Shown here piece by piece: positions 49,556-58,386 of a stretch of DNA of 64,000 nucleotides; within the stretch, counting starts at the first letter, position 1; each line of letters begins with the position of its first letter. Both the position numbers and the translations under genes were made by a program. The DNA is from Natronococcus sp. A-GB7 (lineage in GTDB: Archaea > Halobacteriota > Halobacteria > Halobacteriales > Natrialbaceae), in NCBI RefSeq assembly GCF_029688865.1, contig NZ_JARUKV010000002.1, positions 124,001-188,000 of the forward strand. Reading direction: 5' to 3'. The notes under the pieces were generated by a model, which had not been told where the DNA came from, searched no databases, and saw only the letters and a list, made by a program, of their open reading frames with translations.

Positions 49556-49831
49556 TCAGACGTCGACGTAGCGACTGACCCACTCCTGGCGCTGCTGGAG
49601 TTCGCGTCGACCTTTCGGCGTCAGCGCATAGTAGTTCGTCCGTCGGTCGAGCTGGCCCTTCTCGATGAGTTCCTTCTCGACGAGCGCGTCGAGATTCGGA
49701 TACAGCCGGCCGTGCGTGACCGGCTGATCGATGTACTGGTTGATATCGTCGAGGATTTCCTGCCCCGACGGTCGGTCCTTGCCCGCGATGACGTACAGCA
49801 AGTCGCGCTGGAACCCGGTTAGTTCGTCCAT
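49556..49831 (-). CDS. PadR family transcriptional regulator
   Basis: A 91-residue winged-helix regulator. It begins MDELTGFQRDLLYVIAGKDR and has QEILDDINQYIDQPVTHGRL, YPNLDALVEKELIEKGQLDR and TNYYALTPKGRRELQQRQEW, the PadR pattern of recognition helix followed by the wing and a C-terminal dimerisation helix. Short PadR proteins of this type are common in haloarchaea. An AT-rich box (TTATAG at 49874-49879, minus strand) about 43 bp upstream may be its promoter. Target unknown; the divergent NUDIX gene is a candidate. Confidence 0.9.
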   Translation of the reverse strand: MDELTGFQRDLLYVIAGKDRPSGQEILDDINQYIDQPVTHGRLYPNLDALVEKELIEKGQLDRRTNYYALTPKGRRELQQRQEWVSRYVDV

Positions 49832-49965
49832 GGAGTATCCTCTGAATGGCGACCTTCAGCGATCTGTGGCTTTGTTATAGAGCAGGTACGTTCGCCGGCC
49901 CGAGCGGAACGCACTGCATAGTCGATTCGACCTCCCGCTACTCGATCGCGGTTCGGATCCGTGAC

Positions 49966-50654: not shown

Positions 50655-51962
50655 TCAGCGCAGGACTGCGATCGAGGGCGTTTCGTCCTCGTCGTCCTCG
50701 AGGTCGTTCTCCTCGTCGTCGGTCTCTTCGTCGGCCTCGTCGTCGGTCACTTCCTCGAGGTCCTGGGCGTCCCCGAGCGTGACGGTGTCGGCGTTGGCGT
50801 CGGTGACCGAGATCATGGAGGCGGAGGCCTGGGAGACCGTTTCGGTCGTGGCCTCGTCGTTCTCCTCCTCATCGGTCGCATCGACCTCCTCGTCCTCGGC
50901 AGCGTTCTCGTCCTCGTCAGCCGCGTGGTTCTCCTCGTCGGCTTCCTCGAGCGACTCGATCGTCATCGAGTCGAAGGTGACCTCCTCGACGTCGAACTGC
51001 TCGATGGTGAGCTCCTCGATCTCCTGGGTTTCGCCGTTCTCGTCCTCGGCAGCATCCTCCTCGTCGGCCGCGTCGTTCTCCTCGTCGGCCGCGTCGTCCT
51101 CGTCTTCGGTGGCGTCCTCGGCGTCGTCGTTCTCGTCCTCGTCAGCCGCGTCGTTCTCCTCGTCGTCGCCGAAGATCCCGTCGAACCAGTCACCGATATC
51201 GTCGAGGAGGCCGCCGTCCTCGACGGTCAGCTCGTCGATCGTCATCTGTTCGACGTCCATCGTCTCGATAGTTAGAGTCTGGATCGTGAGTTCGCTCGCG
51301 TCCTCGTCGATCAGATCCTGACCGTTCTCGGGTGCCTCGTCGTCCGCGGCGTCGTCATCGTTCATTTCCTCGTCCGTCTCGTCATCCGCGAGGTCGTTCT
51401 CCTCGTCGGCTTCCTCGGTTTCCTCGTCGTCCATCATCTCGTCATCGTCCATCATCTCGTCGTCGTCCATCATCTCGTCGTCGTCCATCATCTCGTCATC
51501 GTCCATCATCTCGTCATCGTCCATCATCTCGTCATCGTCCATCATCTCCTCCTCGTCGAGCTCGAGGTTGTCGATCGAGACGTCCTCGAGGGTCAGCGAC
51601 TCGAGCTGGATGTCCGAGATCGTCACGTCCTGGGCGGTCTCGGTGTCGGCAGCGTCATCGTCCTCCTGGTTCTCTTCCGCTTGGTCCTCCTCCTGGTTCT
51701 CTTCGCCGTTCTCGTCGAGTTCCTCCTCGAGGTCCTGCGTGTCGGCCTCGAGTTCGTCGACGTTCAGTTCCTCGATCGTCGCGTCCTCGATCGTCACTTC
51801 CTCGAGGTCGAGGGTTTCGACCTGGACGTTCTCGAGCGTCGCGCTCACGTCTCCGGCGTCGTCGCTCGCGCCCGCTGACGCGCCGGCGAGGGCGGGACCC
51901 CCCGAGAGCGCGACCAGCAGTGCGACGAACACGACGCCGAGTTTCTGTACGTTTGAAACCAT
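50655..51962 (-). CDS. exported hyperacidic pentad-repeat protein, paralogue A
   Basis: A 435-residue predicted secreted protein. The N-terminus MVSNVQKLGVVFVALLVALS is a Sec signal ending ALA-GAS, cleavage near residue 26. The mature protein alternates five short modules of hydrophobic pentads with hyperacidic linkers. Module 1 (46-75) reads VQVET-LDLEE-VTIED-ATIEE; hydrophobic residues fall at exact five-residue spacing (V48, L53, I58, I63, V68 and V46, L51, V56, A61, L66, L71), as in pentapeptide-repeat beta-solenoids. Linkers contain E-M-M-D-D-D repeats and long Asp/Glu runs. No C-terminal membrane anchor or sorting signal is seen. Paralogue B follows upstream. Confidence 0.78.
   Translation of the reverse strand: MVSNVQKLGVVFVALLVALSGGPALAGASAGASDDAGDVSATLENVQVETLDLEEVTIEDATIEELNVDELEADTQDLEEELDENGEENQEEDQAEENQEDDDAADTETAQDVTISDIQLESLTLEDVSIDNLELDEEEMMDDDEMMDDDEMMDDDEMMDDDEMMDDDEMMDDDEMMDDEETEEADEENDLADDETDEEMNDDDAADDEAPENGQDLIDEDASELTIQTLTIETMDVEQMTIDELTVEDGGLLDDIGDWFDGIFGDDEENDAADEDENDDAEDATEDEDDAADEENDAADEEDAAEDENGETQEIEELTIEQFDVEEVTFDSMTIESLEEADEENHAADEDENAAEDEEVDATDEEENDEATTETVSQASASMISVTDANADTVTLGDAQDLEEVTDDEADEETDDEENDLEDDEDETPSIAVLR
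51431..51548. repeat. 18-bp in-frame tandem repeat, six and a half copies
   Basis: The unit CCATCATCTCGTCATCGT (with A/G variation at one position) runs from 51431 to 51538 in six copies, then a partial seventh to 51548. On the coding strand it encodes the hexapeptide M-M-D-D-D-E. Copies are nearly identical at DNA level, so recent expansion by slippage is likely and copy number may vary between strains. Confidence 0.9.
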
Positions 51963-51990
51963 GCGAGCCGACCGTGGTCGGTAGCCGAGC

Positions 51991-52010
51991 TAAAACGAGC
52001 CGACTGTTAC
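51991..52010 (-). promoter_or_regulatory. shared upstream box of hyperacidic paralogue A
   Basis: On the minus strand the 20-bp stretch starting GTAACAGTCG and ending CTCGTTTTA is repeated with one mismatch at 53657-53676 upstream of paralogue B. Both copies end exactly 28 bp before their ATG. The TTTTA part is a plausible TATA box and the distance fits a short or absent leader. Confidence 0.7.
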
Positions 52011-52260
52011 GGTGTCGTGCTCGAGACAAGCCCGAATTAGCGCCCGACCCCGTCGTCCTAATCGGTCGTTCACTCCGACCGGATCGGCGGCAGCTTGCGA
52101 TCGAAACCGGATACGTCAGCTCCTCGACAATCCGAACGCGACGGGCAGTAGTACTCCGCGAGAACAGGACGTTTACTCACGGCATCGAAAAGAAATCGCG
52201 GTCAGTCCGCGGTCGGCACCGCCGACCGACCGGAACCGGTCGATCTCGCGTACAAACCGG

Positions 52261-53628
52261 TTAGCTCAGCGTGGCGATCGAGGGGAGACCGTCGTCGTTC
52301 TCCTCCTCGTCGTCATCGTCATCGAGCAGTCCGTTGTCGTTCTCCTCGTCGTCGTCGATCGCCTCGAGCTCCGCGGCGTCGCCGAGCGTCAGCGTGTCGA
52401 CGGTCGCGTCACCGATCGAGATCGACGATGCGGACGCCTGGCTGACCGTCTCCTCGGCGGTGTCGGTCTCATCGGCGTCCTCGTCGTCCATCTCGTCGTC
52501 CTCAGCCGCGTCGTCCTCCATCTCCTCGTCGTCGTTCATCTCGTCGTTCGCGTTCTCCTCGTCGTCAGGCGCGTCCTCGGCGTCAGCTTCCTCGACCGAC
52601 ATGGCGGTCATCGAGTCGATGGTCATCTCCTCGACGTCGAACTGTTCGATGGTGAGCTCGTCGATCTCCTGGGTCGTTTCGTCGTCCTCAGGTGCGTCCT
52701 CGTCATCCATTTCCTCGTCGGCGTTCTCCTCGTCCTCGGCCTCGTCGTCGTTCATCTCGTCGTCGGCGTTCTCCTCGTCGTCGACGCCGTTCTCTTCGTC
52801 TTCAGCGGCGTCCTCGTCATCCATTTCCTCGTCGTCGTTCATCTCGTCGTCATCGACGGTCAGCTCGTCGATAGTGAGCTGCTCGACGTCCATCGTCTCG
52901 ATGGTCAGGGTCTGGATCGTGAGCTCGTCAGCCTCCTCGTCGATCAGATCCTGGCCGTTCTCTTCGGCCTCGTCGTTGTCGTCCTCGAGCAGGCCGTCAT
53001 CGTTCTCCTCGGCCTCGTCGTTGTCGTCGTTCAGGAGGCCGTTATCATCGTTCTCCTCGTCGTCAGCTTCGTCGGCCTCCTCGTCATCGACGCCGTTGTC
53101 CTCCTCGTCGACGTCGTTCATCTCGTCCTCGTCGAGTTCGAGATCGTCGACCGAGACGTCCTCGAGCTCGAGCGACTCGAGTTCGATGTCGGTGAGGGTC
53201 ACCTCGTCGGCGTCATCGTCGTTCATCTCGTCTTCGTCATCGGCGTTCTCTTCGTCATCGACGCCGTTCTCTTCGTCATCGACGCCGTTCTCCTCGTCAT
53301 CGACGCCGTTCTCTTCGTCCTCAGCTGCGTTCTCTTCGTCGTCAGCCGCCTCGTCCTCGTCAGCGGCGTCGGCGTTCTCGTCGAGTGCGTCCTGGAGTTC
53401 TTGCGTATCGGCGTCGAACTCCTCGACGTTCAGCTCCTCGATGGTAGCGTCTTCGACCGTGACGCTGTCGAGTTCGAGGCTCTCGACCTGGACGTTCTCG
53501 AGTGTTGCGCTCATGTCTCCGGCATCATCGCTCGCGGCTGTGGACGCTCCGGCGAGGGCAGGACCCCCCGAGAGAGCGACCAGCAGTGCAACGAGGACGA
53601 CGCCGAGTTGTTGCGATCGTGAAACCAT
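52261..53628 (-). CDS. exported hyperacidic pentad-repeat protein, paralogue B
   Basis: A 455-residue paralogue of the preceding protein. Same Sec signal (MVSRSQQLGVVLVALLVALS, then GGPALAGAS) and the same five pentad modules in order: VQVES-LELDS-VTVED-ATIEE; VTLTD-IELES-LELED-VSVDD; LTIQT-LTIET-MDVEQ-LTIDE; LTIEQ-FDVEE-MTIDS; and ISIGD-ATVDT-LTLGD. Modules are nearly identical between paralogues while the acidic linkers differ (E-N-G-V-D-D-E repeats here instead of M-M-D-D-D-E). Start at 53628 is preferred over an in-frame ATG three codons earlier because of the identical spacing to the shared promoter box. Confidence 0.78.
   Translation of the reverse strand: MVSRSQQLGVVLVALLVALSGGPALAGASTAASDDAGDMSATLENVQVESLELDSVTVEDATIEELNVEEFDADTQELQDALDENADAADEDEAADDEENAAEDEENGVDDEENGVDDEENGVDDEENADDEDEMNDDDADEVTLTDIELESLELEDVSVDDLELDEDEMNDVDEEDNGVDDEEADEADDEENDDNGLLNDDNDEAEENDDGLLEDDNDEAEENGQDLIDEEADELTIQTLTIETMDVEQLTIDELTVDDDEMNDDEEMDDEDAAEDEENGVDDEENADDEMNDDEAEDEENADEEMDDEDAPEDDETTQEIDELTIEQFDVEEMTIDSMTAMSVEEADAEDAPDDEENANDEMNDDEEMEDDAAEDDEMDDEDADETDTAEETVSQASASSISIGDATVDTLTLGDAAELEAIDDDEENDNGLLDDDDDEEENDDGLPSIATLS
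53245..53338. repeat. 21-bp in-frame tandem repeat in paralogue B
   Basis: GTTCTCTTCGTCATCGACGCC and near copies start at 53245, 53266 and 53287, followed by two degenerate copies to about 53338. It encodes the heptapeptide G-V-D-D-E-E-N. As in paralogue A, the repeat lies in an acidic linker and keeps the reading frame. Confidence 0.85.
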
Positions 53629-53656
53629 GCGGGCCACGCTACACCCAGCCGGAGAG

Positions 53657-53676
53657 TAAAACGAGACGACTGTTAC
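53657..53676 (-). promoter_or_regulatory. shared upstream box of hyperacidic paralogue B
   Basis: Minus-strand copy of the 20-bp box also found before paralogue A (19 of 20 identical), again ending 28 bp before the ATG. Conservation of both sequence and spacing, while flanking DNA differs, points to a selected promoter element. Confidence 0.7.
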
Positions 53677-53870
53677 GCCATTATCGTCGAGAAAAGATCA
53701 GTTAGAACCGTGTAACCGTCGCTAACCTCTTGTTCCTCGTCTCGTTTCCCGTGACCGTAATCGACGGCGACACGACGACGACACGACGGGAGCGATCGCC
53801 TCCGGATCGGCGGACGGAGCCACCGCAGGAGAACGGAACGTTTACCGACGCCCTCGCCAACACACGGTCG

Positions 53871-55349
53871 ATGCGCGAGTGCTTCGAACTCCGGGACGCC
53901 GACGCCGGCGGCCGTATCGGCGAACTCACCGTTCCGCGAGCGGACGTGACCGTCGAGACGCCGGCGCTGTTGCCGGTGATCAACCCGAATCTGGACACGA
54001 TCTCCCCCCGTCGGCTCGCCGAGGAGTTCGGCGCCGAGATTCTCATCACCAACTCCTACATTATCTACGGCACCGAGGACGTCCGAGAGGCCGCCCTCGA
54101 GGACGGACTCCACGAGCTGCTCGACTTCCCAGGCGCGATCATGACCGACTCCGGCTCCTTCCAGCTCGCGGAGTACGGCGAGATCGACGTCACCACCGAG
54201 GAGATCCTCGACTTCCAGTACCGGATCGGCTCGGACATCGCCACCCCAGTCGACATCCCGACCCCGCCGGACGTCTCCCGCGAGCAGGCCGAGGACGAAC
54301 TCGCGACCACGCAGGAACGCCTCGAGATCGCCGAGACCGTCGATACGGGCGAAATGCTCGTCAACGCGCCCGTCCAGGGATCGACCTATCCCGACCTTCG
54401 TGAGGACGCGGGCCGACACGCGGCCGGAACCGACCTCGACGTCTTCCCCGTCGGCGCGGTCGTCCCCCTGATGAACGACTACCGCTACGACGACATGATC
54501 GACGCCGTTGCGGGCGCGAAACGCGGGCTCGGGGCCGACGCACCCGTCCACCTCTTCGGTGCTGGCCACCCCATGATGTTCGCGCTGGCCGTCGCGATGG
54601 GCTGTGACCTGTTCGATTCCGCGGCCTACGCGCTCTACGCCCGCGACGACCGCTACCTGACGGTTCGGGGTACTCGCCATCTCGAGGACCTCGACTACAT
54701 GCCGTGTTCGTGTCCGGTCTGTGTCGCCCACTCGCCCGACGAGTTACGAGCGCTGCCCGACCGGGAGCGCGAGGAGGAGCTCGCCGCCCACAACCTCCAC
54801 GTCACCTTCGAGGAGATCCGCCGGATCAAGCAGGCGATCCGCGCCGGAAAGCTACTCGAGCTGGTCGAACAGCGCGCCCGGGCCCACCCGACGATGCTCG
54901 ACGGCTACCGCACGCTGCTCGACCACGCCGACCAGCTCGAGCGCTCGGATCCGGTCTCGAAGGGCGCCTTCTTCTACACCTCCCACGAGAGCGCCCGCCG
55001 ACCCGAGGTGCTGCGCCACCACCAACGCCTCGACCGGCTCTCGGTACCCGACTCGCTGTTTCTCACTGAGGGCGACTCGGACAGCGAGCGCTACGACGAC
55101 TCCTGGCGGGTCCAGCCGCCGTTTGGCCCCTTCCCGCGGGCGCTCTCGAAGAGCTACCCGCTCACCGCCGAAGTCCCCGAGCGAACCGACCGCGGCGCGC
55201 TCGAGGCCGCCGCCGACGGCGTCGCTCGCCTGGTCGAGTGCAATCCCGAGACCGAGTTCGCACTCGGACACCAGGGATGGCCGGCGGACGTGCTCGAGCG
55301 GATACCGGATGACGTCGATCTCGTCGATCTGTTCGGAGAGGATGGCTGA
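53871..55349 (+). CDS. tgtA: archaeosine tRNA-guanine transglycosylase
   Basis: Exchanges guanine 15 of archaeal tRNAs for preQ0, the first committed step to archaeosine. The 492-residue protein has the TGT barrel with [42 protein letters not shown] (catalytic Asp in the D-S-G-S-F-Q motif), [18 protein letters not shown] and [20 protein letters not shown], then the zinc site around CSCPVC and the C-terminal extension typical of archaea. The ATG at 53871 (MRECFELRD) is preferred over the in-frame upstream stretch. arcS, the next enzyme, is encoded 1.3 kb downstream. Confidence 0.95.
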
Positions 55350-56634: not shown

Positions 56635-58386
56635 ATGACCGACTACTTCGAAGTACACGCACGCGACGGGGCCGCGCGCGTGGGCGAGCTCCGCCTCGAG
56701 GAGCCGCGTTCGACCCCCGCCCTCGTCGACGACGTCCTCGAGGACGCGGGCTCGCTGTGGAGCGCCGATCGGGGGGTGCCCGAGGGCGACGACTCCCGTC
56801 TCACCGTCCTCCCCCACCGCGGCTTCCCCGGGGGGACCGCCGACGAGGTCAAAGAGTCGTTCGCCGTCGACTACCCCGACGTCGACTACCCCAGCGTCGC
56901 CGTCGTCTCGAGCGACCACGCCGACGACCACGGCACCGACGCCTACGCCGTCTCGGACGTCCAGTCGATCACGGGCCACGGCGCGGCGCTGGTCGAGGCC
57001 GTCGTCGAGGCCCGCAAGGCGATTCCGACGGACACCGCGCTCTACTTCTCGGGGGTCGCCACACCCCGTAACGTCGCCGTGCTCGCCTACGCCGGCGTCG
57101 ACATCTTCGACGAGACCGCCGCCGTCGTACGGGGGACCGAGGGTCGATATCTCACTACGGACGACGCCTACTTCCTCGAGGATCTGGAGGAACTCCCCTG
57201 TGCCTGTCCCGCCTGTCAAAAGCCGCGCGAGGAGTTCACCCGCGAGGACTGCGTCGAGCACAACGTCAACGCCCTCGAGGCGGAGCTGGGGATCGTCCGC
57301 CGACGGATCCGGGACGGCCGGCTCCGGGACTACGTCGAGGGCCAGGCCCGCCAGGACCAGTGGCTCACCGCTGCCGTGCGCGAACTCGACTCGCAGTGGG
57401 GCTACCTCGAGGAGCGCACGCCGATCCTGCGGGACGCACAGATCGACGCCGCGACCGAGGACACCCTCCGGCGAGTCGAGATCCAGCGCTACGCCGATCG
57501 GGTGACGACGCGGTACCGTAACCGCTTCGACAATCCGCTCGTGTTGGTGCCCTGCTCGGCGGCGAAACCCTACAGCGAGTCCCAGAGCCACCGCCAGTTC
57601 CACGACGCCATTCAGTTCCGGGGCCACCTCGTCTCGATGACCAGCCCCATCGGCGTCGTCCCCCAGGAACTCGAGACGACCTACCCCGCCCAGCACTACG
57701 ACACCGTCGTCACGGGTCGCTGGTCCGAAGACGAGAAACGGTTCGTGAGTACCGTCCTCGAACGGTACCTCGAACGCAACTCCTACCCGGAGATCATCGC
57801 CCACGTCCCCGACGAGGGCTACCGCGATATCGTCGGACGGGTCGAGGACGAACTCGACCTCGACGTCACCTACACCGTCGAGGAGCATCCGACCGACACC
57901 GAGTCGCTGGCGAACCTCCAGCGGACGCTCTCTGGAGAGCTCAAGTACTCCAAGCGCGAGCGCGAGCACAACACCGTCCGCGCCATCGCGGACTATCTGC
58001 TCGGCGACGGGGCGGGCGACGAGCTCTTCTCCGACATTCAGACGACGAGTCGGTACCCGAAGATCCAGGTTCGCGACCGGGAGGACACCCAGCTGGCGAC
58101 GATGGTCCCCCAGTACGGGACGCTATCGTTCACGCTCGAGGGCGCCAGGATGTGGGTCGACAGCGAGGCGCCCACGAAACGGGTCGAGATCGACGGCTTC
58201 GTCCCCCACGGCAGCGTGCTCGCGCCGGGGGTCGTCGACGCCGACGAGGAGATTCGAGTGGGCGACGAGGTCGTCGTCGAGGGGCCGAAGGCGTTCGGCG
58301 TCGGCCGCGCCGAGATGTTCGGCCGCGAGATGGCCGAGAGCACGCGCGGCATCGCCTGCGAGATTCGTCACGTCGAGGAGAAGTAG
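56635..58386 (+). CDS. arcS: archaeosine synthase ArcS
   Basis: Converts preQ0 at tRNA position 15 to archaeosine using an amino donor. The 583-residue protein keeps the TGT-like N-terminal half (YFEVHARDGAARVGELRLEE, ALYFSGVATPRNVAVLAYAG) and the ArcS-specific region with PCSAAKPYSESQSH, IGVVPQELETTYPAQHYDTV and a C-terminal PUA domain (about 505-583, YGTLSFTLEGARMWVDSEAP and VVDADEEIRVGDEVVVEGPK). It follows tgtA in the same region, the usual pairing for this pathway. The ATG at 56635 gives MTDYFEVHARD. Confidence 0.95.
   Translation: MTDYFEVHARDGAARVGELRLEEPRSTPALVDDVLEDAGSLWSADRGVPEGDDSRLTVLPHRGFPGGTADEVKESFAVDYPDVDYPSVAVVSSDHADDHGTDAYAVSDVQSITGHGAALVEAVVEARKAIPTDTALYFSGVATPRNVAVLAYAGVDIFDETAAVVRGTEGRYLTTDDAYFLEDLEELPCACPACQKPREEFTREDCVEHNVNALEAELGIVRRRIRDGRLRDYVEGQARQDQWLTAAVRELDSQWGYLEERTPILRDAQIDAATEDTLRRVEIQRYADRVTTRYRNRFDNPLVLVPCSAAKPYSESQSHRQFHDAIQFRGHLVSMTSPIGVVPQELETTYPAQHYDTVVTGRWSEDEKRFVSTVLERYLERNSYPEIIAHVPDEGYRDIVGRVEDELDLDVTYTVEEHPTDTESLANLQRTLSGELKYSKREREHNTVRAIADYLLGDGAGDELFSDIQTTSRYPKIQVRDREDTQLATMVPQYGTLSFTLEGARMWVDSEAPTKRVEIDGFVPHGSVLAPGVVDADEEIRVGDEVVVEGPKAFGVGRAEMFGREMAESTRGIACEIRHVEEK

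Follow-up and report, generated by a model that had tools for sequence, protein, structure and literature searches.

Results

Two acidic-protein genes and their shared promoter box

The window analyzed here, a 64-kb stretch of the genome of Natronococcus sp. A-GB7, carries two paralogous genes on its minus strand. Gene 1 (50655..51962) encodes an exported acidic protein of 435 aa with pentapeptide-like beta segments between acidic linkers, and its paralogue, gene 2 (52261..53628), encodes 455 aa counted from the ATG at 53628. A tandem MMDDDE repeat occurs in gene 1 (window 51425-51550), and relatives vary in the length and acidity of their linkers, some being rich in NxS/T motifs. Searches of the acidic proteins against Pfam, NCBIfam, and PDB gave no match of weight; the curated Pfam pentapeptide repeat cut-off was not reached (best E value of a window gene, 0.22; one of 44 members, 0.00023). 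The AlphaFold2 model (pLDDT, 56.8) had a few beta-rich segments, and a Foldseek search with this model returned mostly beta-helix proteins at nonsignificant values (best E, 2.0); no fold is claimed.

Upstream of each gene, on the minus strand, lies a 20-bp box: GTAACAGTCGGCTCGTTTTA at 51991-52010 for gene 1 (AACAGT, 52003-52008; TATA-like TTTTA, 51991-51995) and GTAACAGTCGTCTCGTTTTA at 53657-53676 for gene 2 (AACAGT, 53669-53674; TATA-like TTTTA, 53657-53661). The original prediction, that the two boxes are nearly identical and equally spaced from their genes, was borne out by a match at 19 of 20 positions, with a single difference between them, and by a distance of 28 nt from box end to ATG in both cases (ATGs at 51962 and 53628). 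A third copy was absent from the 64-kb window at up to three mismatches (0 matches in 100 shuffles), and at the same tolerance the boxes of genes 1 and 2 were the sole matches in the whole 4.88-Mb genome. Looser patterns in this genome gave 6 matches for GTAACAGTC-N6-TTTTA with two mismatches (6 for the reversed control), the four extra sites having no matching promoter, and 6 matches for AACRGT-N8-TTTA (1 for the control), the four extra sites having no exported family gene beside them.

Conservation of the box as part of an 84-bp block

Relatives of the acidic proteins were found in 33 of 61 genomes examined. The box was present in all 47 homologous genes from 31 Natrialbaceae genomes, 28 nt from the ATG in 39 and 29 nt in 8, a count that leaves out two genes from other families (L063 and L064) and an internal start in L037. 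Columns G1, AAC, T8, and the final TTTA were invariant in the 47 genes, and TTTTA was found in 43. It had been proposed that the sequence between box and start, and that further upstream, is not conserved. For the two window copies this is a fair description, with 8 of 28 spacer positions identical and slight similarity remaining immediately above the box (14/30 at -30..-1, 10/32 at -62..-31, and 11/48 at -110..-63). Across relatives it is wrong, because conservation extends over some 60 bp above the box: mean identity between loci was 0.86 in the box, 0.38 in the spacer, 0.53 at -30..-1, 0.37 at -62..-31, and 0.28 beyond.

The box forms the proximal end of a conserved block of about 84 bp (alignment A1), with a consensus of roughly GAAC..ATTAG..ACCGTTGC..TTCTAAC..TTTTC..GAGATAAT..CGTAACAGTCGNCTCGTTTTAGCC. 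The block of gene 1 (51987..52070, minus strand) is a weaker copy, scoring 48.3 bits with the block profile R1 and GC-rich where most relatives have ATAAT; that of gene 2 (53653..53736, minus strand) scores 68.7 bits and has AT patches that follow a helical spacing. That the box might belong to a long upstream block of conserved sequence had been named beforehand as an observation that would speak against co-regulation; taken literally, relatives do have such a block, but what it shows is a regulatory element of larger size, and regulation is not refuted by it. Two features noticed in the alignment were set aside by eye: a palindrome, CGAGATAATCTCG, spanning the ATAAT patch, found at some loci only and dropped because its right half is absent from the consensus, and an upstream small ORF, which lacks a three-base pattern and has variable gaps.

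Strong R1 matches (E<6e-8) occurred in 31 of 61 relatives and only before this gene family, the next best match having an E value of 0.0175; at E<1e-4, R1 matched in 96 of 125 family genomes. Among 20 stretches chosen for retrieval, mostly R1 matches that were weak or away from the usual locus, 17 lay before family genes, one before a frameshifted copy (L096), one where the gene had been lost (L105), and one was a chance match (L109). At L096 (G118:C3:1488500-1494500), the promoter block is intact ahead of the frameshifted gene; at L105 (G069:C1:2364500-2370500), the block is intact although the acidic gene that it would precede has been lost, and another copy is present elsewhere in that genome. 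The exact pattern GTAACAGTCNNCTCGTTTTA matched 26 times in 84,980 named genomes, 24 times in Natrialbaceae and twice in bacteria, and all 24 Natrialbaceae matches precede the acidic-protein family. In Natrialbaceae, the promoter serves almost only exported acidic pentapeptide-like proteins.

A leaderless-type core promoter

Two neighboring genes of the window, at 53871-55349 and 56635-58386, which from their sequence we take to be tRNA-guanine transglycosylase/archaeosine-type genes, lie beside the acidic genes in a syntenic arrangement that is conserved. Upstream of the neighboring genes tgtA and nudix, T-runs are conserved at about -26 to -30, as is an AT pair near -11. The fixed 28-bp spacing of the acidic genes is consequently ordinary, since neighboring genes have the same TATA-to-ATG geometry and 28 bp is the usual TATA-to-start distance of leaderless haloarchaeal promoters. 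Summed over 110 upstream columns, the information content was 82.9 bits for the acidic genes, 43.5 for tgtA, 42.7 for nudix, and 58.9 for tgt2 (14 rows); for padR, whose leader is conserved in its own right, it was 89.9.

A study of Haloferax volcanii promoters (PMC4983044) describes a TTWT TATA element, a WW at -10, and 72% leaderless transcripts, with which the T-runs and AT pair of tgtA and nudix agree. The promoters of the acidic genes share with that basal promoter the TTWT-type TATA element at a leaderless distance (TTTA in 47/47, 28-29 nt from the ATG), the WW near -10 (T in 37/47 and A in 39/47 at box +36/+37), and a predicted start of transcription which, judged from the spacing, would lie 0 to 5 nt before the ATG. 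The proximal, WW-like element of gene 2 is the TA at 53640..53641 (minus strand, columns 36-37); window gene 1 is an exception, with AC there. In contrast to the H. volcanii promoter, that of the acidic genes has CTCG (columns 12-15) in place of the CGAAA BRE, and it adds AACRGT at a fixed distance together with a phased AT array. Regarding the prediction of TATA plus a specific factor, the TATA-type core (TTTTA at the leaderless position) and a specific element are indeed there, whereas the factor itself is something that we infer.

The same element in other families and before unrelated genes

Two features of the promoter are unusual: AACRGT stands exactly 8 bp above TTTA, and AT patches recur every 10.5 bp farther up. 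With an N-terminal profile, homologues of the acidic proteins were detected at E 1e-4 in 131 of the 392 genomes in the order, a count that includes the family itself, and distant homologues in other haloarchaeal families carry AACGGT-N8-TTTAT at the same place. AAC-N11-YTTA was found near the start in 37 of the 38 distant-homologue rows taken, the single miss being L212, a protein of the same family whose match lies mostly in its signal region. The spacing between AAC and TTTA found in Natrialbaceae thus holds outside this family as well. In 12 genomes, AACRGT-N8-TTTA had 109 sites, compared with 18 for the reversed and 21 for the scrambled pattern.

Three genomes of family f17 together held 41 such sites (5 for the control), of which 38 were retrieved as non-main and the remaining three belong to the main family. 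Twenty-nine of the 38 fell into 8 homology groups common to two or three of the three genomes. The genes behind these sites include those of an HVO_2072-type S-layer glycoprotein (TIGR04216; E, 6e-56 on a truncated stretch), DUF7282 exported proteins, a polysaccharide deacetylase, exported pentapeptide-like relatives, a glutamine-rich protein, and a disordered protein. When a crude rule based on hydropathy and Tat was applied, 7 of the 11 gene groups appeared to be exported. A TIGR04216 search of 24 chosen genomes found the S-layer gene in three, all f17, with the box before each. Also in f17, AACGGT-N8-TTTA lies 36 nt before the gene of a DUF7344 protein with apparent membrane segments (L263; G052:C1:232180-233600), which is possibly a candidate regulator, seen in one of the three genomes. 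The expectation of a small regulon of exported proteins was thus disappointed in the organism's own genome, where only these two genes were found, and upheld in f17, where the same element and phasing appear to mark a small regulon rich in envelope genes.

A profile built from 23 f17 promoters only, with pentapeptide-like genes excluded (R2), ranked the two boxes second and third in the 64-kb window (E, 0.019 and 0.16), the top match (E, 0.015) having no TATA part and not being a promoter box. Across 28 Natrialbaceae loci, eight of nine R2 matches were family boxes, with a sensitivity of 8 out of 42 family boxes (34 missed). The ninth, L039, in the same genus as the window, begins 67 nt before a predicted Tat-exported protein, for which L266 of f17 is a homologue (32% over 158 aa; E, 1.8e-12).

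Helical phasing of AT patches

Above the box, the A/T columns of Natrialbaceae had a period of 10.5 bp (block-shuffle, 0.0002), a value to be read with the caveats that orthologous Natrialbaceae rows are not independent and that the region limits were set after looking; random row shifts reproduced the 10.5-bp phasing of f1 in 0 of 4000 trials. When 28 f17 sites were aligned on AAC, AT peaks appeared near -51, -41, -30, -20, -10, and 0, again with a period of 10.5 that none of 4000 random row shifts matched. This set was assembled without 10 of the 38 non-main matches, because no homologue of these was recognized by eye; three of them later fell into homology groups. Seventeen generic promoters from the same genomes showed no phasing (p, 0.98). 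Since the rows are related, the analysis was repeated with one site from each of the 8 non-homologous groups; in every case the best period was either 10.5 or 10.75, with a median p of 0.008 and a maximum of 0.052. Phasing was not significant in nine f17 sites without homologues among the matches (the other seven left-out matches plus L257 and L266; p, 0.10) or in f4 homologues (6 rows; p, 0.099), and window gene 1 has a poor AT array as well as no TA at the -10 place. The padR promoter gave a 10.25-bp AT signal of about a third of the amplitude, indicating that phasing is not wholly private to the element; with the related rows and the choice of region limits noted above, this bounds the claim of phasing as a whole.

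Discussion

Conservation, fixed spacing, phasing, exclusivity, and the recurrence of the same element before unrelated genes are all seen directly in the sequences compared here. Co-regulation of the box genes is well supported. We infer that a protein factor reads the box, and propose on the same footing its kind, the start of transcription, and the direction of regulation. The box is probably the half nearer the start of a composite haloarchaeal promoter, in which a leaderless TATA element is joined to a regulator site made up of AACRGT and a phased AT array. TTTTA would serve as the TATA element for a transcript with little or no leader, and AACRGT with AT patches one helical turn apart would be bound by a regulator common to these genes. 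This regulator would most likely be an oligomeric DNA-binding protein that runs along a single face of the DNA for five to six helical turns and influences the recruitment of TBP/TFB. Because the site lies upstream of TATA without overlapping it, we think that regulation may be by activation. Haloarchaeal bop and gvp promoters have upstream activating sequences directly above BRE/TATA; the placement is the same here, whereas the sequence and the target genes appear to differ. An Lrp-like oligomer and the haloarchaeal histone HpyA are candidate binders.

A minority possibility is that a low-copy HpyA-like histone docks on the phased AT array; the core machinery or a partner would then recognize AACRGT. 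According to PMC10128011, regions bound by HpyA in Halobacterium salinarum have a periodicity of about 10.4 bp in AA/TT/TA and lie at few discrete sites, while haloarchaeal genomes are without a genome-wide 10-bp periodicity; the arrays described here resemble these regions in their period of 10.5, in AA/TT/TA too, and in their restriction to few discrete places. According to the same study, however, HpyA sites occur in both coding and intergenic DNA with no preferred position relative to starts, whereas the array here is phase-locked to AACRGT and TATA and stands only before particular genes.

It is doubtful that the element is a variant of the basal promoter, with AACRGT and TTTA forming the preferred site of one TFB/TBP paralogue and the genes sharing a TFB type without a separate regulator. 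The box does end in a TATA element at the usual place, and neighboring genes also have conserved BRE/TATA columns, but AACRGT begins 14 bp above TTTA, beyond the usual BRE distance, and the phased array extends about 60 bp above AAC, farther than the normal reach of TFB. The replacement of the CGAAA BRE proposed for haloarchaea (PMC4983044) by CTCG could mean that another TFB is used.

Control of the box by the adjacent PadR-type regulator (49556-49831, minus strand) is highly improbable: padR is near the acidic genes in most loci, but regulator and element do not go together, as three genomes (G006, G018, and G036) have a close padR orthologue without the block and three others (G008, G012, and G021) have the orthologue placed elsewhere. 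The leader of padR itself (49832-49890; CTCTATAACAAAGCCACAGATCGGTGAAGGTC...TCAGAGG) is conserved more strongly than the promoter of the acidic genes, with 40 of 110 columns exceeding 1 bit across 28 genomes, possibly reflecting autoregulation. That the boxes are a leftover of recent tandem duplication, which the original prediction rightly discounted, has virtually no chance of being correct and, judged by conservation in non-tandem and distant copies, is already refuted: the genes are tandem paralogues with 48 of their first 60 coding bases identical, but the box is kept at 28 or 29 bp in all 47 genes and in other families, the flanks between the paralogues are near background, and in the protein tree each window gene groups with its orthologue in G002, of the same genus, and not with its paralogue. 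Protein alignment A2 excludes L037, L065, and the long copy of L061.

Within the open literature searched, no description of the element was found; PMC8553660 concerns structural profiles of archaeal promoters in general and does not bear on the element. We tentatively propose that the composite promoter belongs to an undescribed envelope regulon shared by haloarchaea, in which AACRGT-N8-TTTA and a phased AT array would be read by an oligomeric or histone-like protein along one face of the DNA. In some families, such a regulon may control surface proteins, the S-layer glycoprotein among them; in Natrialbaceae, it may have shrunk to the acidic pentapeptide-like exported proteins and a few others. 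Little is known about how haloarchaea coordinate the construction of their protein coat. The promoter signature would offer a handle on this process, making target genes predictable from sequence and serving as bait for the regulator. It would also be a case of helically phased AT tracts, which PMC10128011 reports to be absent genome-wide in haloarchaea, placed exactly at chosen promoters, and such a case would test the role of the scarce haloarchaeal histones.
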